20,139 bases of DNA from a virus. The notes beneath the pieces were generated by a model that had not been told where the DNA came from, did not search any database, and worked only from the letters and a program-made list of their open reading frames with translations. Made by a program: the position numbers and the translations under genes. Shown piece by piece: positions 6,501-17,753 of this stretch (position 1 is the first letter of the stretch; each line of letters starts with the position of its first letter). Location of the stretch: positions 1 to 20,139 of IMG/VR virus record IMGVR_UViG_3300013113_000999; one strand, written 5' to 3'.

Positions 6501-9047
6501 GATATAGAAGATGATACGTTCCAACCAGATTTAAGATTAACTGAAGTTATTAGACCAGTAAAGCCAGCTTCAGTAGTCACTGGAGCAAAAATTGAAAACG
6601 CTGATAATTCTTTAAGTTTGCCTATAACCATAACAGATCCAGCTTCGGGGATACCTGAAAAATATATTGTATTTCTAGAAGAGCCGAATACAAATGTTAT
6701 AATTTCTGAAGTTTTTAAAAGTCCTAGTTCGCAAACAGTATTTACTTTAAGTGGGACAGCGAAAATAGATCAAGTTGGAGATTATGAAATCAATGTATTT
6801 TCGGAAAATATAACTCCAATTAAATCAAGAAGTACCGATGCGACATCGGTATCTTTTACTACACAAGTGTCCGATTTCGGATTAAGTCCTCAGGATAATT
6901 TTGTTGAATATCAAAATATTTTTATAAATACTGCATACCAGTCATCATATGACAATACAAACGAAACTGGAACTGCTCAAAATTCTTTTTTTGAAAATGA
7001 TCCGAATATAAATGCCGTTATTAATTTTGAATTTGAAGATATATTTGGTAATAGCGGCGCATCTGTAACGGACACAGTAAATGATCAAGTAATTAATTTA
7101 AAAGATTCTGAGGGCAATATTATACAAAATAATTTTAAAACACTTTCTAATCAAAGTTCTGTAACTATATTAAATTCAGAATTAAATAATGCATTTAATT
7201 ACACTGGAGACGGAAAATATATAATGCCTCCAAGTCTAGACTTTGAAGTTTCAAGTTTTGAATTAGCTGGCTCCGAACCAACAACTCAAATTTTTGATTT
7301 TGAGCAAAGCTTTGATGAGACTCCTACTGTTTTTATGTATGAAGTAGTTGATGGAGATTATAGTGATTTTTCTAAGCCTATCGGAAGAGTAAGTTCTACA
7401 AGTGAGAGTTTTTCTGTTACTGGTGTTTCAGATAGAGCTGCAAAATACGCTTATATAGCCTCAAAAACAGGGGTTTTTAAATTTAATGGAGCTTCAAAAA
7501 CAATACAAATAGGCAATGCAAATAACGATAATACTTCCAATTATCAATTTGTAGGTTTTCATGAAGATTTTAATGTCGCTCCTAAAGTATTCGTACAGCT
7601 TCAAAAACCCGACACCGCAACAGAAACTTATTTTTCAAATACTTGTATAACAGGGGTTTCTACAAGCGGCTTCTTCTTTAAATCTTTTCAATCAGATTTG
7701 ACTGTTGCCGATGGAACTGGATTATATGCTTATATAGCTTTAGATCAGAATATTTTTAATGTTTCCTCTTCTAGTAATCTTCCAATATTATCATTGAATT
7801 ATTGCGCTACTGGGGAACAATCTTATCAATTTTCATCTGATAATATTTTAGAGCCAGCAAATGGATCCAATAATGTGGGATTAAGATTTGACCACGATCA
7901 ATATGCTGTTATGTGTCAAAGATCTGGAGATAATTCATACTTCAATGATAAATTCTTTGTTGTTCATAGGACAGGAAATGAAAATAAAGTTTTCCAGCAT
8001 ATGTTAGAAACGGGTTTGGAGCCAGGACTTAGATCTCAATTAACTGGAGGTGCTACAAACCATATACTTATTACTGGAGGCGGTTTGCAAATAGACACTG
8101 GTAATTTCACATTAGCTGCTTGGGTGAAATTTAATAACAATTTAAATGGCAAACAATATCTATTAGAGTCTCACAAAAATGGAACTGGCGTGGCTTGGTT
8201 CCAATCTGGCGATGGAAAAAATTATTTAAATTTAAATGGAACGGATTATTTGGCAGCTACTGGCGCAACTACATTAAATGATGATAATTTACATTTCTTG
8301 CAAATAGTTGTTGATAGAGAAAATGGTTTAACGGGGTATTTGGACGACGCTACAAATTTCAATGTAAATACGTCTATAACTGGTCTTAGAGATGAATCTT
8401 TTATAACTGAATTTAATATTACTGGAGTTGGAACTGGTGTTTCTGGAAATGCAAATACATTTGATGGAGAATATACTGGATCTTCATCTTTGTTCCAAAA
8501 TACAACCACAAGTGGATTAAGATTTAAATTAGATGGAGTTAAATGGATATTGACTGACGAAGATGTTGGGAGTCCAAGTTTTGGGAAAATAGCTTGGGAA
8601 GGTGGTAACAATATTAATTACCCTTGGAATGTAACTTCTTGGACTGGGGTGGACGCTTTGGGGACAAGTTCTGCTCCATCTTTCTCTGGACTTTCTCCTT
8701 TTGTTGGTGTGAGTTTAAATTCCCAAACAGGTTTTAAAGTTTTAGGAAATTCGGAACTAAACGGAGAAGCCTTAACTAGTGGACATATTAATAAATATTT
8801 CTCATTAATAAGCGGAACAACCGTAGGAAATTATTTTAGCAATCCAAACAGTTTTTTCACTAGCTTTACAGGAAATACAAATACAGAATTTATATTCAAT
8901 ATAACAGGCTTCCCATCATTGATAGATGCCTCCGAAAATACAACAATAAGCTTATTAGGCAATATAGAAAGATCAGAAGAAATAATAAATAGATCATTTA
9001 GCTCTAATTTTAATTTTATGCAAATAGGGGTTACAGGTACATTATGA
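3591..9047 (+). CDS. J: Host-specificity / receptor-binding tail-tip protein J (lambda gpJ-like), greatly enlarged
   Basis: The central hub and receptor-binding protein of a lambda-type tail, 1818 residues against 1132 in lambda. J-family landmarks are YEALDLICEGPVAGL (41-55); a small beta insertion with HGI...VSGSNNLNLNGTY (about 200-260); SGNWDGTFKFGWSDNPAWI (515-533) followed by YDLL..TRYGIG; CNIIIKDQLGAFEALQDLAR (604-623); and FEGLLIEPGDIIMVEDE (761-777). A fibronectin-III-like segment follows near 990-1090. The C-terminal 700 residues have no lambda counterpart. They hold two related beta units (about 1232-1299 and 1317-1389), each with a P-x-V-F-[MV] strand and ending AYIA, that resemble H-type-lectin-like repeats. 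A LamG/concanavalin-like domain (about 1490-1603, core FTLAAWVKFN) comes next, then further Gly/Thr/Ser-rich beta sequence. These are probable receptor-binding domains. The stop overlaps the next gene (ATGA). Confidence 0.88.
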   Translation: MSFYKNRFRKKISIAGRSKGAKPSYLMPPNGAFSKIGFQIYEALDLICEGPVAGLTDKRGLLLQGDYAKKEFKQDDNKIGSSTNGIDKGIYFNDVSLREETNQPTHSKYDVEFRDGSEFQKASSIVKTPSKLHKISTPIKGPYEMGVPLFEGSVASVSWIDPNDYIETINQTSSGFARLFLFFALLGNKNEKYRVITSSPHGITNDDMGYAFVVSGSNNLNLNGTYAAIERSVSPTEIVVSLPKSNNNYYNATGGTYKVLELGSENGARKGTGSRDVRREGTSARDFVNWQNLGVREVLEKPYNYVNYDKNVNKLTIGLQIDGLSDTKSYATASENDAGRSRMGTPLPLTVTLQVLVGKVDKDGIETIQTASFTTRSGKGVTLGDGNGIISISGIISAPYSISLENITLPALSDTDIYNFVRVRKSQYETYSNLIKRDIGVATITEINDQTYVYPNSCYVATSIDSKYFPQVPSRTFRLKGKKILIPSNYNPINANGSDRRFSSDGSTRGNQIYSGNWDGTFKFGWSDNPAWIYYDLLINTRYGIGSHLRDVEIVDKWTLYEIGMYCDAVTMNDGSKTTNDYGGAGYFIGLDDGFGGLEPRFSCNIIIKDQLGAFEALQDLARSFRAMTYFNNSCVTVKVDRPYFFEDFNNTATTAPKENKFPPHLIFNNLNVKDGMFSYADVDKSTKLSAVEVSFLDKKNNYRSATEYVEDTEAIKYVGLNFKQIDGIGVTSRSQAHRLAKYILFESQYTTETVSFSAGFEGLLIEPGDIIMVEDEMRNFTKNFGTILGASGETTYYDPDGVGNLATLTTGKGPEAIIVEPAIGSDQLDYITGGNIHIYNPVGKSGIDDFYKNPSSNNELYKEIHNPQVISLQIKPGGSGLSYDIVDSGVAIYINGLNNFANGNAQSQWFSEKDVNIRHGSIYNIDASGRSPNYYRVLNIQEDKEKGFNISATIHHTGKFKFVEENIAFDIEDDTFQPDLRLTEVIRPVKPASVVTGAKIENADNSLSLPITITDPASGIPEKYIVFLEEPNTNVIISEVFKSPSSQTVFTLSGTAKIDQVGDYEINVFSENITPIKSRSTDATSVSFTTQVSDFGLSPQDNFVEYQNIFINTAYQSSYDNTNETGTAQNSFFENDPNINAVINFEFEDIFGNSGASVTDTVNDQVINLKDSEGNIIQNNFKTLSNQSSVTILNSELNNAFNYTGDGKYIMPPSLDFEVSSFELAGSEPTTQIFDFEQSFDETPTVFMYEVVDGDYSDFSKPIGRVSSTSESFSVTGVSDRAAKYAYIASKTGVFKFNGASKTIQIGNANNDNTSNYQFVGFHEDFNVAPKVFVQLQKPDTATETYFSNTCITGVSTSGFFFKSFQSDLTVADGTGLYAYIALDQNIFNVSSSSNLPILSLNYCATGEQSYQFSSDNILEPANGSNNVGLRFDHDQYAVMCQRSGDNSYFNDKFFVVHRTGNENKVFQHMLETGLEPGLRSQLTGGATNHILITGGGLQIDTGNFTLAAWVKFNNNLNGKQYLLESHKNGTGVAWFQSGDGKNYLNLNGTDYLAATGATTLNDDNLHFLQIVVDRENGLTGYLDDATNFNVNTSITGLRDESFITEFNITGVGTGVSGNANTFDGEYTGSSSLFQNTTTSGLRFKLDGVKWILTDEDVGSPSFGKIAWEGGNNINYPWNVTSWTGVDALGTSSAPSFSGLSPFVGVSLNSQTGFKVLGNSELNGEALTSGHINKYFSLISGTTVGNYFSNPNSFFTSFTGNTNTEFIFNITGFPSLIDASENTTISLLGNIERSEEIINRSFSSNFNFMQIGVTGTL

Positions 9048-10381: not shown

Positions 10382-11139
10382 TACATTAGCTTGAGTAGCT
10401 TCCGACATTCTTTTGCTGGAATATCTTTGTAGTTTTTCCAGGTCTTAATGACCTCTGGGTCATTTTCATATTTATTATCCACGTAAAGCTTTCGTAGCTT
10501 AGTTAGAAATGAATTGAAGTCTGTACCCGCCTTTTCTTTTAGAATCCCTTGTGGGCTAATATCCTTAGCTCCAGAGGACGATGGAGGAGCTACAATGGGA
10601 GACTTATTCTTGGACGAGTCAATCTCGTCAGCCCCCACAATATGAATACCCAGAAAGTTACGCACAGCGCGAACAAAAGCACGATTTTCTGCGATACATT
10701 CTAAGAACTTCGCAGCAAAACCATTTGTATTGTGAAGTGTTGCATTAGCAATGGAGGAGAACTTCGCACCATGATCACTGCAAAGGTGTGTTGGATTTTC
10801 ATAATTGCAAATAAAAGTGATAACGCACTTGACGACAGATCTCTCTTCAGAAGACTCAACGATGTCGTAATTAACAGTGTCGATACCTCTAAGCTTCGCA
10901 AGCTCCTTAATCCCAGCAAGCTTAATTAGAAGCTGGTTGTCTTCCAATCCTTCGATAGAATCTGGAACTGGCATCTTGCGCATTTCAAAGTGATCTTTGT
11001 TTGGGTATAGATGTTCTGGGCTAATCATAGCTCGCCAATTGACGGAGCCATCCTCGTTAAATACATATGCAACAGACTCAAGGAGTCCATGTTCGTCGCG
11101 CTTCCAGATATCTGGGCCAAATAATTTATTTTTCTTCAT
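10381..11139 (-). CDS. Possible single-strand annealing / Rad52- or Erf-like recombination protein
   Basis: A 252-residue protein that is not firmly recognised. The core (about 70-175) alternates strands and helices: IKLAGIKELAKLRGI, VVKCVITFICNY, GAKFSSIANATLHN, then a helix FAAKFLECIAENRAFVRAVR and FLGIHIVGADEI. The last helix resembles the [ED]-x-RA-x-x-RA-[LV]-[RK] helix of Rad52-, Erf- and related ssDNA-annealing proteins, which fits a replication/recombination neighbourhood. A Pro/Ser-rich disordered linker (about 175-197) leads to a small helical C-terminal domain. Blocks sampled inside the gene (10561-10680) are near 50% GC, clearly above flanking genes. The gene overlaps the upstream GT9 half by 14 bases and the GNAT gene by one. 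Another DNA-binding or scaffold function is possible. Confidence 0.4.
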   Translation of the reverse strand: MKKNKLFGPDIWKRDEHGLLESVAYVFNEDGSVNWRAMISPEHLYPNKDHFEMRKMPVPDSIEGLEDNQLLIKLAGIKELAKLRGIDTVNYDIVESSEERSVVKCVITFICNYENPTHLCSDHGAKFSSIANATLHNTNGFAAKFLECIAENRAFVRAVRNFLGIHIVGADEIDSSKNKSPIVAPPSSSGAKDISPQGILKEKAGTDFNSFLTKLRKLYVDNKYENDPEVIKTWKNYKDIPAKECRKLLKLM

Positions 11140-12247
11140 ATAGGTATAAACTTTCTAATTCTTTAGATGAAGCTTCATCATAGACGAAGCTGTTTGATTT
11201 GTCAAGTCTTTTTGCAGAAGATTCTGATTTAAAAACTTGACCATCGGATACGAATATTTTTTTGGAAATAAATTTTGCGGCTTTTATTTCTTGATGAGGG
11301 TTTTTATCTTCCAATACATTAAAATCAAAATACTTTAAACGTACCGAGGAAATCTTACTCTTATCTTTGACTCTGATTATGACTTGAATTTTTTTATTTT
11401 TTAAAGTTTTAAAAAATTCTGAAAGATCGGTTTCTTTAGGCTCGTCATATTCGTAAATGACTTGCTTAAGGTTAGGCATATATTGCAAGGCTTCGGTATT
11501 AAAAATTTCAGACAAATGTAAGCTCACTATGCACATTTGACTCCATTTACAAACATTCTCTAAATTAAAGAATAAATCTCCTCTTATGTTTACTGACTTG
11601 TTAACTAATTCTTTTGAGTATGCAAAAAAGTTAGGTACGATCTCGATGGTCTCATTATTGAAATTTGATCCCACTCTAATTGTTTTGAATTTGATTTTTT
11701 GTTTAACGCCTATTTGATCTAAAATAGCTTGAGCGATTTGTTCTGGTTTGATTTCGTTAATTCTATTGCAATTGGAAGAAAAGGATGGTTTTGTTTTTGA
11801 AAAATCTGGCTCAATACTTATGCAAGAATTGTCCTTATGCCATATTGGTTTTGAATTTTCTTTATAAAGATTAAAGTGCAAAATGATTGAAGGTATATCG
11901 TAAACGCTAGCAATATGTGCGGGAAGGCTGTCGCAGCCACAATGAGCTTTAGCATTTTTAATCACATAATTCATTTGTTTATAAGAATTACCTAGAGTAG
12001 TTAAATCTATTCCACTTATTCGATTATCATTTGGACCTCCGACTTGAACTATCTTTATATCACCAAGATGAGGTTTTATCAAACCGATTACTAGGTCCCA
12101 ATACAAATAATTTGCTGCTGGCATCTTGTTTGATGCTTGAATAGTTATATATTCATTAGGTAATCCTGGAAAAAAATGATCTGTTATTACAGGCTGGCCA
12201 ATCTTGACCCCTAGATCTTTTGCGTAAACTTCAGCTATATGACTCAT
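11126..12247 (-). CDS. C-terminal half of a GT9 (heptosyltransferase-like) glycosyltransferase plus unknown domain
   Basis: A 373-residue protein. Residues about 30-175 look like the nucleotide-sugar-binding C-terminal Rossmann half of family 9 glycosyltransferases: YITIQASNK (phosphate loop region), IKIVQVGGPNDNRI, then CGCDSLPAHIASVYDIPSIILH (103-124), corresponding to the family's DSG-x-x-H-x-A-x-x-x-x-x-P signature with D106 and H111. The N-terminal Rossmann half is missing. Instead, the protein begins with MSHIAEVYAKDLGV, which looks like the interdomain linker. The missing half appears fused to the glycosyltransferase at 12631-14319. Residues about 185-373 start with KTIRVGSNFNNETIEIVPNF and include a second alpha/beta unit of unknown function. 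The start overlaps the DUF6165 stop by 17 bases, consistent with coupled translation of all three genes. Confidence 0.75.
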   Translation of the reverse strand: MSHIAEVYAKDLGVKIGQPVITDHFFPGLPNEYITIQASNKMPAANYLYWDLVIGLIKPHLGDIKIVQVGGPNDNRISGIDLTTLGNSYKQMNYVIKNAKAHCGCDSLPAHIASVYDIPSIILHFNLYKENSKPIWHKDNSCISIEPDFSKTKPSFSSNCNRINEIKPEQIAQAILDQIGVKQKIKFKTIRVGSNFNNETIEIVPNFFAYSKELVNKSVNIRGDLFFNLENVCKWSQMCIVSLHLSEIFNTEALQYMPNLKQVIYEYDEPKETDLSEFFKTLKNKKIQVIIRVKDKSKISSVRLKYFDFNVLEDKNPHQEIKAAKFISKKIFVSDGQVFKSESSAKRLDKSNSFVYDEASSKELESLYLYEEK

Positions 12248-12641
12248 ATGATTTTACTTCTTTTATGTCTGAATTTGTTATTTGATTAATTTTGTTTTTG
12301 ATATTAAAACGTTCGTCGTTTGTGTAATAAACATCTCTTGCAAGTCGAATAAATACTGCACCAAAATCTTTGTTTCGTTCACATTCTCTGATTTGATCTT
12401 CAATCTTCCATAACCCTAGATTGATTTGATACAGATCCGCTTTTAAAGCGCAAAGATCTGCTCTGGAAAAGTTAAAACCAAGCGCTGGATTAATCAAATC
12501 TGCAAATTTTTTATTTAATTCAACTCTTTCATTTTTAACTTCTTGTAGCTTCTCTACATCTTTAATCATTGACGATTTGATTTCAAGGATTGTTAGTTTA
12601 TCAAGAAGCTCACCTACTGATATAGGGATATTAATTTTCAT
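12231..12641 (-). CDS. DUF6165 family protein
   Basis: A 136-residue helical protein matching DUF6165. The N-terminus INIPISVGELLDKLTILEIK is the family hallmark. The middle has LKADLYQINLGLWKIEDQIR, and the C-terminal part FIRLARDVYYTNDERFNIKN ends in EVKSYESY, again typical. The function is unknown. From memory, members often lie next to or fused with glycosyltransferases and LPS/O-antigen genes, and that is the context here: it is sandwiched between a GT4-GT9 fusion (11-base overlap) and the second GT9 half (17-base overlap). It may act as a small partner or scaffold of that enzyme. No catalytic motif, signal peptide or membrane segment is visible. Confidence 0.8.
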   Translation of the reverse strand: MKINIPISVGELLDKLTILEIKSSMIKDVEKLQEVKNERVELNKKFADLINPALGFNFSRADLCALKADLYQINLGLWKIEDQIRECERNKDFGAVFIRLARDVYYTNDERFNIKNKINQITNSDIKEVKSYESYS

Positions 12642-14319
12642 ATAATTCGAACTGTGTTTTGTCTTGACCGTTATGGTGGTAATTATGGAAGCGCTGAGTC
12701 CCGTAGTGCGGCAAAAACGCTATATCAAAAAATCCTTTATGGCCTTGTTTGCCCTCTAGAAAATGCAAGTTATCAATTTCTTGGGAGTATGGCAGTATTT
12801 TGTAAACCGCTGGATGGTCTTCTATATAATCAAAGAATTGAGATTTGGTAAAAACATAAATGTCATGAGAGGGGTAAAGCTCTTTAAGGTTATGCATTAA
12901 TGAATTAACCCATAAAACATCTCCAGCGGATTCTGGCATAAGAACGGCAATTCGACTTCCTTCATCTAGTAGATCTTCTATATTTATTCCTTGTTTTTCT
13001 TCTTTCCCCCAATCAAAGTCATAATCAACGTCTGGCATTGCATCTAGAATCTTTTCGAGCTTCTTGCCTACGGCTTCTGTTGAGTAGTTATCTATAGTCC
13101 ATTGTCGGCCTTTTTTACCCATCTGAATGCGTTTGTTTTCATCCATTTGCCAAACTTTTTTAAGCTGTTTTGCTATGCTTGATGGATAAGTAGAAGCTTT
13201 AATAAACTGGGTTCCTGGTTCTCTGTATTCCGACCAATCAAGGGCGAAACTCCCAGATTCGGTTGTGGAAGAATCCTCGCCGCATGAATAATTTGTTACA
13301 AGGGTAACAAGTTCAGTCATCTTCGCTTCAAAAATTGGAATTTCCATGCCGCCGCTTGTAAAAGGGTGGCAATAAACATCCATAAGATTATAAACCTCAT
13401 TAAGCTGTTGTTCATTAACTCCTGCTTTTGTGTTTGTTGTATTGAGGGATTTTTCAGTCCCGCAAAAACGACATTTTTGTTCTTGGCCTGTAAACGGGCG
13501 AACTTCATATTGGCCGCAAGCAGTGCAATAATAAGTGGTTAGAATGTCATCTTTATTTAATCCTTTTTCTTCAATAAGCCTTGGAATATCCCAACCCTCA
13601 GACCAATGGGTGTGTAAAAGCAGTTTTGCTTTAGGGCAATCTTTTTTAAATATTTTAAAACCTTCCATCAGATTTGGAACGCTTTTTCTTAATTGATTTC
13701 TAAATACAAAACCAATAATGAACTCATCTGAAAGGCCTAATTTTTTTCTAAGTCCTTCCCGTTCGGAATTTGAAAAACGGTAAAAATCACCTGTATCAAC
13801 ACTTCCATGGAGAGTGTCAACATGATCGTGGCCCATTTCTTTTAAATCTCTTTCTGCAAAAGACGCCCAGCTATAAAAGTTTTTTGTTTTAAGTGCAGCC
13901 TCTACGGCTTGTGGTAAAATTGGTTGACTATCTAATGTAGTCCAAATCATATGATTGATTTTATTCCACCACGGCTTTTCCCAATAGCCACCAAAGGCCC
14001 AAATATCTTCGCAGCCTATGTAGATATCTGGCTTATATTCTTTGATTGCTAAATCAATAGTTTCCGCTCCATATCCAGCAGCACGACCTCTTTGTGGGTC
14101 TTGGTTTAATTGTCGAATAATTGATGGATCGTTTGGTAGGGAACCTTGAGCCCTCCAGGGTCTTAATTTTAATGACGCATCATTCCATTGCATTCCATTC
14201 GCGAATTCAATAATTTCATACTTGCCAGTTTTATAAAGATGACGAAGAATGTTTTTTGCGTTTTTACCAAAGCCTGTAAAAGCTTTTGCAGAATTTGAAT
14301 GAAAAAGAATCCGCTTCAT
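12631..14319 (-). CDS. GT4-type glycosyltransferase with inserted zinc ribbon, fused to N-terminal half of GT9
   Basis: A 562-residue protein. Residues 1-430 form a GT-B glycosyltransferase of the GT4 type: an N-terminal Rossmann domain (MKRILFHSNSAKAFTGFGKN), a C-domain start FIIGFVFRNQLRKSVPNLME with the phosphate-binding R/K pair, and HPFTSGGMEIPIFEA (318-332) ending in the conserved family glutamate E331. Inserted at about 262-290 is a zinc-ribbon-like unit, C265-x2-C268 and C283-x2-C286. Residues about 454-562 look like the acceptor-binding N-terminal half of a GT9 enzyme: SRIAVLMPESAGDVLWVNSL, LKELYPSHDIYVFT, then DIAFLPHYG. The protein stops where a GT9 enzyme would enter its C-terminal half, which is encoded two genes downstream. 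The start overlaps the preceding stop (TAATG). The acceptor is unknown. Confidence 0.82.
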   Translation of the reverse strand: MKRILFHSNSAKAFTGFGKNAKNILRHLYKTGKYEIIEFANGMQWNDASLKLRPWRAQGSLPNDPSIIRQLNQDPQRGRAAGYGAETIDLAIKEYKPDIYIGCEDIWAFGGYWEKPWWNKINHMIWTTLDSQPILPQAVEAALKTKNFYSWASFAERDLKEMGHDHVDTLHGSVDTGDFYRFSNSEREGLRKKLGLSDEFIIGFVFRNQLRKSVPNLMEGFKIFKKDCPKAKLLLHTHWSEGWDIPRLIEEKGLNKDDILTTYYCTACGQYEVRPFTGQEQKCRFCGTEKSLNTTNTKAGVNEQQLNEVYNLMDVYCHPFTSGGMEIPIFEAKMTELVTLVTNYSCGEDSSTTESGSFALDWSEYREPGTQFIKASTYPSSIAKQLKKVWQMDENKRIQMGKKGRQWTIDNYSTEAVGKKLEKILDAMPDVDYDFDWGKEEKQGINIEDLLDEGSRIAVLMPESAGDVLWVNSLMHNLKELYPSHDIYVFTKSQFFDYIEDHPAVYKILPYSQEIDNLHFLEGKQGHKGFFDIAFLPHYGTQRFHNYHHNGQDKTQFELYEN

Positions 14320-16250: not shown

Positions 16251-17753
16251 TTAAAATCCTATTCTACCAGAAGATGGTATATTTTTGTTTTCTTTAATGT
16301 TTTCTTTCGAGGTATTTAATTTATTTGCAAATATATCATATATAGTATCCATGTCAACATTAAAAACTTTATTTTCCAAACTTTCTCCCCATTTTTGTAT
16401 AATCTTTGAATACTTCTTGTGGAATTTTTCGTATTCGGGAGTTTTTTGGAACTCTTTGTCAGTTAGTTTGTCCTCCATATCTTTGGCTTTTTGTGGTCGT
16501 ACTATATTTGTCTTTTTTGTTTTTGCCCCCGATTCGTCCAAGATGTCAAAAGCTTTGTCTGGAAATTTTTTATCATTTAAATAAATATCGCACAAGTCTA
16601 CAATTTTTTTAATCAGGTCTTCTTTGTACTCTACTTGGTGAAATTTTTCATAAGATTTTTTTGCACTCTTAATTAATTCAAAAGTTTCTTCTTTAGTTGG
16701 CTCTGAAACGTCTATTTTTTCAAATCTACGATTTAGTGCCGAATCTTTCTTAAAAAAACGATCATATTCATCTTTAGTCGTAGCTCCAATGCAGGATATG
16801 TTGCCCCTTGATAATGCTGGCTTCAAAATGTTAGCAAAATCTAAGCTACCTTCTGAGCTTCCAGCTCCAACTATAGTGTGAATTTCATCAATAAACAAAA
16901 TATAATGATCTTCTTTTGATAAGTGTTCTAAAATGTTTTTAAGTTTTTCTTCCATCTGTCCTCTGTAGATAGTGCCAGCTAAGACGGAAGTTAAATCTAG
17001 CGAAAGTATATTCTTGTGAAGCAGTAAGTCTGGACATTCTCTCTTGATGATTTTTTCCGCCATGCCTTCTACAATAGCTGTTTTACCAACACCAGCTTCT
17101 CCGACTAAAATAACATTACTTTTATTTCTACGCAACAAAATTTCAAAAATTCTTTCTATTTCTTTGTCTCTGCCAAAAATTTCAAACTCTTCTTTTTGGG
17201 AAATTTTATCATTTAAGTTTTCACACCAATTTTCCATTTGGTTAAGAGCCTCTTCTGGTTTTTTGTTTGCAGAATTTGAGCCTACAGAACATGGAACGTT
17301 CTGCATTGGAATGCCATCTTTAATAATTTTGCTTAAATCCTTGATTAGCTTAGTTAGGTCTATATCCAAACTAATTAAAAAGTCTACGATCTCCTCTCTG
17401 GTGCTGAGTATAGAAAGAAATATGTGGTCAATACCAATATAATCATCTTTGAATTTTCTTGATTTTAAAGCAGCAAAATCTAAAATTTCTTTGATTTCTG
17501 GCGCAAAGATTGATTTTTTTCTTTTGGGTTCTTTGTAATTTAATAAAGCGTACTCTATACTTTTGTTAATACCTTCTTTAATTAGATCGTTTGATATTAA
17601 AACATAATCAATATTACTGTGATCTAATTGCAATATACAAGTCATTAAGTGTAAGTCTATGACTTTGAGGTGGCCAAAGTCTTTAGCAATAGAGACTGAG
17701 TCGCTAATCGCTTTTTTGGCAGAAGGAGTTAGGTTATAACTGGAAAGATCCAT
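16251..17753 (-). CDS. ClpA/ClpC-like AAA+ unfoldase with N-domain and D1 only
   Basis: A 500-residue member of the Clp/Hsp100 AAA+ unfoldases, which thread proteins through a hexameric ring. Residues 1-145 form a double Clp N-domain (two similar helical repeats, each with LTPSAK/FAALKSRK-like and H/D-x-x-x-IL segments). The AAA+ D1 module follows: IFGRDKEIERIFEIL (192-206), Walker A GEAGVGKT (218-225), pore-loop segment AGTIYRGQMEE (259-269), Walker B ILFIDEIHT (285-293), arginine-finger segment LNRRFEKI (340-347) and sensor-2-like FPDKAFDILDESGA (397-410). ClpA and ClpC (about 750-850 residues) then have a second ATPase module; here there are only about 90 helical residues ending GRIGF. IGF is a ClpP-docking tripeptide in full-length Clp ATPases. 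The start overlaps the dnaE stop (TAATG), and the small basic gene follows. Confidence 0.88.
   Translation of the reverse strand: MDLSSYNLTPSAKKAISDSVSIAKDFGHLKVIDLHLMTCILQLDHSNIDYVLISNDLIKEGINKSIEYALLNYKEPKRKKSIFAPEIKEILDFAALKSRKFKDDYIGIDHIFLSILSTREEIVDFLISLDIDLTKLIKDLSKIIKDGIPMQNVPCSVGSNSANKKPEEALNQMENWCENLNDKISQKEEFEIFGRDKEIERIFEILLRRNKSNVILVGEAGVGKTAIVEGMAEKIIKRECPDLLLHKNILSLDLTSVLAGTIYRGQMEEKLKNILEHLSKEDHYILFIDEIHTIVGAGSSEGSLDFANILKPALSRGNISCIGATTKDEYDRFFKKDSALNRRFEKIDVSEPTKEETFELIKSAKKSYEKFHQVEYKEDLIKKIVDLCDIYLNDKKFPDKAFDILDESGAKTKKTNIVRPQKAKDMEDKLTDKEFQKTPEYEKFHKKYSKIIQKWGESLENKVFNVDMDTIYDIFANKLNTSKENIKENKNIPSSGRIGF

Follow-up and report, generated by a model that had tools for sequence, protein, structure and literature searches.

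Can a phage make a GT9 glycosyltransferase as two separate proteins, each carrying one of the two Rossmann domains of the GT-B fold? The question arises from a 20.1 kb virus record (phage fragment; IMG/VR IMGVR_UViG_3300013113_000999), analysed over its whole length, positions 1-20,139, which we call the window. Three genes follow one another on its minus strand: a gene for a GT4 glycosyltransferase that ends in what resembles the N-terminal half of a GT9 enzyme (12631-14319, 562 amino acids), a DUF6165 gene (12231-12641, 136 amino acids) and a gene whose product begins with the matching C-terminal half (11126-12247, 373 amino acids). The first overlaps the second by 11 nt and the second overlaps the third by 17 nt. 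These open reading frames (ORFs), coordinates and overlaps agree with an initial annotation made from the letters alone, which proposed that the halves are complementary and in the right order, that insertion of DUF6165 might have separated them and that DUF6165 might be their partner. Our analysis favours, with a probability of about 0.78, a two-chain GT9 enzyme tethered to GT4 with DUF6165 as an optional component.

We compared profiles of 21 C-halves (alignment A1) and 21 N-halves (A2) with 12 intact GT9 proteins (A3), all 12 of which match the GT9 family model PF01075. The N-half aligned by hhalign with columns 3-73 of the intact enzymes at 96.5% probability and the C-half with columns 135-347 at 98.0%. 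Among PDB sequences, the C-half profile matched the C-terminal part of 1psw (E 2.2e-4) and the N-half profile the N-termini of 3tov and 1psw. PF01075 was matched at E up to 1 by 20 of the 21 C-halves (best 1.8e-8), and C-halves on 15 of 20 chosen related contigs passed its cut-off, those failing being the window's, L010, L063, L107 and L108. Both half-profiles were also searched over 296 genomes of one phylum, where the matched ORFs were mostly 315-415 amino acids long. Within 52 bacterial loci, picked because one half-profile matched or the frame was long, the C-profile matched 48 ORFs, the N-profile 45 and both profiles 31; the N-match preceded the C-match in all 31 of these intact ORFs (about 28 distinct places by coordinates). 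The hhalign columns and this constant order bear out the proposed complementary halves, and residues 454-562 of the GT4 protein proved GT9-like. The C-half protein also appears to lack a complete GT-B fold of its own: judged by sequence profile, and tail residues 191-373 apart, none of 131 C-half ORFs contains a match to the N-profile, that is, a second GT9 N-domain. The two halves are very probably one enzyme in two chains.

We then asked how general the separation is. From a first viral search the best 80 of 591 stretches related to the GT4-N-half protein were taken, and further loci came from three more searches. The GT4-N-half gene is followed by a separate C-half gene in all 80 loci of the first search and in 131 of all 132 loci with downstream sequence, so that the two halves, far from never occurring together, are almost constant neighbours. 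Left out of the 132 are L081-L087 (repeats of counted contigs or of the window, L082 without N-half, and S-SRM01), L135 (contig end) and L137-L142 (GT4 only). No ORF running through both halves was found in the 131 loci that have both, the first set being the best 80 of 591; each of these loci carries two ORFs in place of the single polypeptide of GT9 enzymes, and the continuous homologue that the initial annotation had envisaged did not appear among them. A pattern scan of viral contigs gave 22 junctions, none continuous (five of the contigs were already known from the other searches). Some contigs had been found twice, and removal of copies left 105 distinct loci from many samples; the window's own GT4-N-half gene has an identical copy on a 112.8 kb contig (L001). 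The position of the split is constant: the C-half begins 6 or 7 residues before a YA motif in 104 of the 105 loci, and, again in 104 of 105, an HN motif lies 11-18 residues from the end of the N-half. The ratio of nonsynonymous to synonymous substitution rates (dN/dS) was 0.016-0.24 wherever it was defined in 14 pairs, indicating purifying selection on the parts. Four matches on genome contigs lie alongside phage-like genes and are all split. In cultured phages, neither the C-half of the window nor that of L090 found a match, nor did the GT4-N-half protein of L091; the window's GT4-N-half protein matched three records with 23-24% identity, and only through residues 1-349 of the query, which belong to its GT4 part. 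N- and C-domains of this enzyme are thus encoded by separate genes, and this is conserved across relatives, as in a natural split GT-B enzyme. The split is not a local accident and its recurrence is not due to chance.

The residues expected in an active site are divided between the two chains. In the heptosyltransferase HepI, D13, D261 and K192 are catalytically important, D13 being the proposed catalytic base, and change to alanine lowers activity 4,688-fold for D13 and 2,027-fold for D261, according to the data given in PMC5713226. By alignment, the window appears to possess both aspartates, as D467 of the N-half and D106 of the C-half. The N-half aspartate is present in all 105 distinct loci and the C-half aspartate in 94, the others having one asparagine and ten other residues. 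One key aspartate per half would place the two aspartates of one presumed active site on two chains. At the probable K192 position, assigned by column equivalence in the alignment, lysine is found in 57 and arginine in 18 of the 105 loci.

In order to examine how the halves may fold together, we used a proxy chain (P0004) made of the N- and C-halves of the relative L007, where two TAA codons, here read as glutamine, precede an in-frame C-half; it is thus not the window's own pair. The alignment (A8) contained 5 N-rows and 20 C-rows picked for proper alignment. The model reached a mean predicted local distance difference test score (pLDDT) of 82.3 and a predicted template modelling score (pTM) of 0.67, with confident structure within domains. 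GT9 enzymes came top in a Foldseek search (WaaC 2h1h 8.8e-7, 3tov 1.1e-6, WaaF 1psw 1.7e-6, TibC 3.4e-6). With VIA-align, model residues 12-291 were placed on residues 3-345 of the 3tov chain (Z 13.8, 234 residues, root mean square deviation (rmsd) 6.2), and the matches to 3tov, 1psw and 2h1h extended across both domains (Z 13.4-13.8). As a prediction, the model supports one GT9-type GT-B fold built of both halves. The proxy also gave structure matches, at 14% identity, to the BFVD entries A0A6J5SVC1 (924 amino acids) and A0A7S9XE01 (985 amino acids), viral proteins long enough for a continuous GT4-GT9.

We propose the following arrangement. The C-terminal extension of the GT4 protein would be the acceptor-side GT9 Rossmann domain with the catalytic aspartate, and the separately translated protein would contribute the nucleotide-sugar-binding Rossmann domain together with a tail domain. 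Encoded by neighbouring, mostly overlapping genes, the two chains would pair into one GT-B active site; GT-B halves made separately can indeed self-assemble, as described in PMC10937113. By presenting the acceptor domain and recruiting the donor domain, the GT4 protein would form a bifunctional GT4 and GT9 complex, to which DUF6165, small and helical, may add an optional third component; in some lineages its gene is located at the split. Such a complex may transfer heptose or another sugar; matches resembling rfaE_dom_II (heptose-nucleotide) occur on 6 of 20 phage contigs, none over the cut-off. Phage glycosyltransferases often alter host surface glycans, and a glycan of the host surface, or else a phage structure, may be the target here.

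An association of DUF6165 with GT9 is also seen in bacteria. We examined all 11 plasmid records that carry a relative of the window's DUF6165, and in 10 of them it either forms one protein with a GT9-like part or is encoded immediately after a GT9-like protein. Four Azospirillum records encode one protein of 723-732 amino acids with TPR, GT9 (22.5-23.8 bits, cut-off 22) and DUF6165 (26.7-28.9 bits, cut-off 27), a fusion of the kind for which the initial annotation had suggested a search. In Paroceanicella and four Paracoccus yeei records DUF6165 overlaps the end of the GT9-like gene by 4 nt, these neighbours scoring 21.3 and 17.4-18.9 bits, respectively, with PF01075, under the cut-off of 22. 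The Sulfitobacter record, where heptose genes are adjacent, has it 33 nt after a GT4-GT9 ORF whose GT9 part scores 48.9 bits. The Azospirillum thermophilum plasmid is the sole record without a GT9 neighbour. Nine of the 11 records come from two genera and are therefore not independent. Among 296 genomes from the phylum of a Flavobacteriaceae metagenome-assembled genome (MAG), DUF6165 had seven matches, three behind a GT9-containing protein (L157, L158 and L160; 25.0-27.1 bits), three alone and one in a phage locus; it was not found in 288 genomes from the phylum of a Verrucomicrobiales MAG. Besides the A. thermophilum plasmid, DUF6165 stands away from GT9 in S-SRM01, L155, L156 and L161. The AlphaFold model of DUF6165 is a four-helix bundle (mean pLDDT 88.3) with no clear match in the PDB (best E 0.13). 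The suggested partnership of DUF6165 with the enzyme is thus supported indirectly, by fusion and adjacency in bacteria. The Sulfitobacter locus (sp. S223 plasmid, L164, 570-3958) shows a further peculiarity: its GT4 seems divided, as a weak GT4 N-domain match (E 0.0094) closes a TPR protein, the next ORF opens with the GT4 C-domain, fused to GT9, and DUF6165 follows. A frameshift may account for this, the full-length match being confined to a single plasmid record.

A second family of small proteins, DUF4254, is likewise encoded beside GT9. In 99 genomes from the phylum of the Flavobacteriaceae MAG it precedes GT9 in 11 of 13 genes above the cut-off (L172-L184), and these 11 GT9s are PF01075 matches; one table row in PMC9425974 also links DUF4254 to RfaF. 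In partial Pfam matches, two short motifs recur in both DUF6165 and DUF4254 but with their order reversed, which resembles a circular permutation. A circular permutation found weak support in hhalign, which gave 23.8 for the unpermuted comparison and 20.6-23.8 over 15 cuts, hence no gain; a doubled copy gave 23.4, and none of 100 doubled controls with shuffled columns exceeded 22.2. The relation of the two families, as judged from their sequences, is only suggestive.

Several observations weigh against a two-chain enzyme. The window's C-half scores 14.6-15.9 bits with PF01075, under the cut-off of 22, and the N-half has no match in the window or in any of the 21 N-halves; since this model sets in near residue 74 of intact GT9s, it hardly covers the N-half. 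By PF01075 the window proteins alone thus do not pass as GT9, although members of their family do. The PDB matches of the N-half profile were weak (3tov E 0.05, 1psw E 1.8, among seven weak matches). In the proxy model the junction stretch 98-144 is under pLDDT 50 and the rmsd to GT9 enzymes is 5-6 Å, which, together with the pTM, makes the packing of the domains uncertain; its donor lineage has also lost the C-half aspartate. One pair of cut GT-B halves (NB1//CB1) was inactive according to PMC10937113, and the pairing of the phage halves is a prediction. The halves might then no longer form one enzyme, the N-half serving as an accessory domain of GT4 and the C-half as a separate enzyme, pseudoenzyme or regulator with a nucleotide-sugar-binding fold. 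This would agree with L136, which has an N-half and no C-half anywhere on its 47.9 kb contig, with the alanine of the window at the probable K192 position, and with a tail domain that has no assigned fold. Ten C-halves (L007, L010, L011, L021, L022, L023, L025, L026, L031 and L033), in three places of the C-half tree, lack the aspartate of the DS motif, and purifying selection persists in the three such pairs tested, so that some copies may be non-catalytic. However, the N-half aspartate is kept even where that of the C-half is lost, most C-halves keep theirs, the halves are neighbours in all loci but L136, and the C-half ORFs contain no match to the N-profile. We therefore regard the loss of joint function as unlikely.

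The two-chain reading also has to be set against explanations of the split itself. Frameshifting or read-through could join the ORFs into one long protein and make the split only apparent, since the two ORFs of most DUF6165-free loci overlap or adjoin to within 14 nt. Yet in the 83 loci of this kind the start of the C-half varies between 14 nt ahead of the N-half's end and 32 nt beyond it, with 453 nt in L113, and the frame of the C-half relative to the N-half is +2 in 60, +1 in 21 and 0 in 2. A whole gene stands between the halves in 22 loci, L113 has two small ORFs of 63 and 98 amino acids (7847-8338, no PHROG match) at this place, and in L007, which is in frame, two consecutive stop codons intervene. 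Junctions in all three frames, which oppose a fused product by programmed expression, and the absence of any continuous one among the 22 found by pattern led us to reject this very improbable explanation. The number of distinct loci, the fixed split point and a dN/dS well below 1 refute an artefact of sequencing or assembly as well as a pseudogene in decay; no point in favour of this explanation was found, and its probability is negligible. It also appears improbable that the split goes back to an invasion of an intact GT9 gene by DUF6165, followed by the loss of DUF6165 from most lineages. DUF6165 does occur in two separate clades of the tree, and L038 retains a 19-codon ORF (MKINI...YESHS) with both ends of DUF6165, the remnant of a deleted copy, which shows that the split can outlast the gene. 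However, DUF6165 lies between the halves in only 22 of the 105 loci; the other 83 show the same split without it, including a whole 19-row clade with L090, L107 and L113, and in the plasmid records with a GT9 neighbour DUF6165 comes after GT9, not within it. An origin of the split by insertion of DUF6165 into the GT9 linker was thus not supported as proposed: DUF6165 need not have caused the split, and the ORFs of L113 indicate that the site accepts other genes.

The halves may also have been exchanged between lineages. A C-half clade of L007, L021, L026 and L031 (support 99/99.6) was rejected by the GT4-N-half data (approximately unbiased test, p-AU 1e-5). The N-clade L031 and L033 was not rejected by the C-half data (p 0.09), nor L002 and L016 by the N-half data (p 0.36); the tested clades were named after the trees had been seen. 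Gene exchange is common in phages. The split could then be an exchangeable module: the GT4-linked acceptor half would be retained and the donor-binding C-half swapped between phage lineages, either together with DUF6165 or without it, and DUF6165, and perhaps DUF4254, would be a GT9 subunit or helper in general; we put this forward tentatively, as a possibility we would not favour. The rejected clade speaks for it, as does the lack of DUF6165 in all ten loci without the C-half aspartate. In the window's clade of 31, the aspartate is lost in 0 of 16 loci with DUF6165 and in 10 of 15 without (Fisher p 7e-5 if rows are independent), which amounts to three independent pairs and is not significant. 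Against it, 73 of the 83 DUF6165-free loci keep aspartate or asparagine at this position.

The features of the locus are collected in Table 1.

Table 1. Features of the divided GT9 locus, in window coordinates.
Feature	Position	Strand	Basis
GT4 domain of the GT4-N-half protein	13000..14319	(-)	residues 1 to ~440; PF00534 27.9 bits (cut-off 26.4), residues 296-407; phrog_2170 glycosyltransferase 9.7e-23, residues 3-426
GT9 N-half, first Rossmann domain	12634..12999	(-)	residues 441-562; hhalign vs intact GT9 96.5%; PDB profile matches to 3tov and 1psw N-termini
D467 of GT9 N-half	codon 12919-12921	(-)	position of GT9 catalytic base by alignment
DUF6165 gene between the halves	12231..12641	(-)	PF19662 41.1 bits (cut-off 27); predicted four-helix bundle
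GT9 C-half, second Rossmann domain, motif CGCDSLPAHIA	11678..12247	(-)	residues 1-190; hhalign vs intact GT9 98.0%; 1psw E 2.2e-4
D106 of GT9 C-half	codon 11930-11932	(-)	within CGCDSLPAHIA
C-terminal tail domain of C-half protein	11129..11677	(-)	residues 191-373; conserved across family

With 16 aligned tails, the tail domain found neither a consistent match in Pfam nor a convincing one among PDB sequences; D35, R114 and F118 (tail numbering) are invariant in these 16 rows, and the domain is without known relatives. Inside GT4, residues 265-286 (13462-13527) form a zinc-ribbon-like CxxC...CxxC insertion with a weak PF14319 match, and the pattern is found in all 105 distinct loci. Elsewhere, the window contains lambda-like tail genes, a DNA polymerase III alpha-like protein and a ClpA-like ATPase. 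The latter (16251-17753) matches only positions 7-494 of the 764 of phrog_4871, the second AAA half being missing here; in L091 a ClpA-D2-like ORF (2-1141, read by eye) lies upstream of the glycosyltransferase genes.

A search of the open-access PMC literature found no paper on a split GT9, the retrieved passages of PMC6892558 mentioning split genes of HP0619 only, and none on DUF6165. Few natural dimeric GT-B enzymes had been reported by 2024, all closely related to Alg13/Alg14, as stated in PMC10937113. If the two-chain reading is true, this locus would represent a second natural case of a split GT-B enzyme, in another family (GT9), fixed throughout a large group of phages from aquatic habitats and with an acceptor half that is joined to a further glycosyltransferase. 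It would also make many natural half-pairs available for testing the exchange of GT-B domains, and it points to a role of DUF6165 as a GT9 partner.

The phage enzyme can be compared with several known systems. It shares with the GT9 heptosyltransferases WaaC/HepI, WaaF and TibC, its best structure matches, both Rossmann domains, the aspartate of the GDV motif in the N-domain and the DS motif of the C-domain; those compared are single chains, whereas the phage enzyme consists of two polypeptides. In Alphaproteobacteria, the TPR-GT9-DUF6165 fusions and the GT9/DUF6165 pairs associate DUF6165 with a GT9-like protein as the phages do, but GT9 is intact there with DUF6165 behind it, while in phages DUF6165 lies between the halves. 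The DUF4254-GT9 pairs similarly place the gene of a small protein beside GT9, although DUF4254 stands before an intact GT9, unlike phage DUF6165. Engineered heterodimeric GT-B chimeras, whose N- and C-domains are made apart and form an active enzyme, are artificial and derive from UGT74 enzymes, one of which was inactive when cut (PMC10937113). A natural parallel is provided by Alg13/Alg14 and EpsE/EpsF, in which one GT-B enzyme exists as separate N- and C-domain proteins that arose by gene split, as outlined in PMC8993221. The GT9 halves are likewise distributed over two proteins, and the split enzyme appears to work like the Alg13/Alg14 kind; nothing found makes it a member, as its matches are to GT9, MurG and Alg13/14 not having been compared head-to-head. 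Alg13/Alg14 and EpsE/EpsF are related to MurG and not to GT9, no re-fused copy occurs in the 131 phage loci with both halves, and, unlike Alg13/Alg14, the phages have fused the N-half to GT4, equipped the C-half with a tail domain and can carry other genes at the split.

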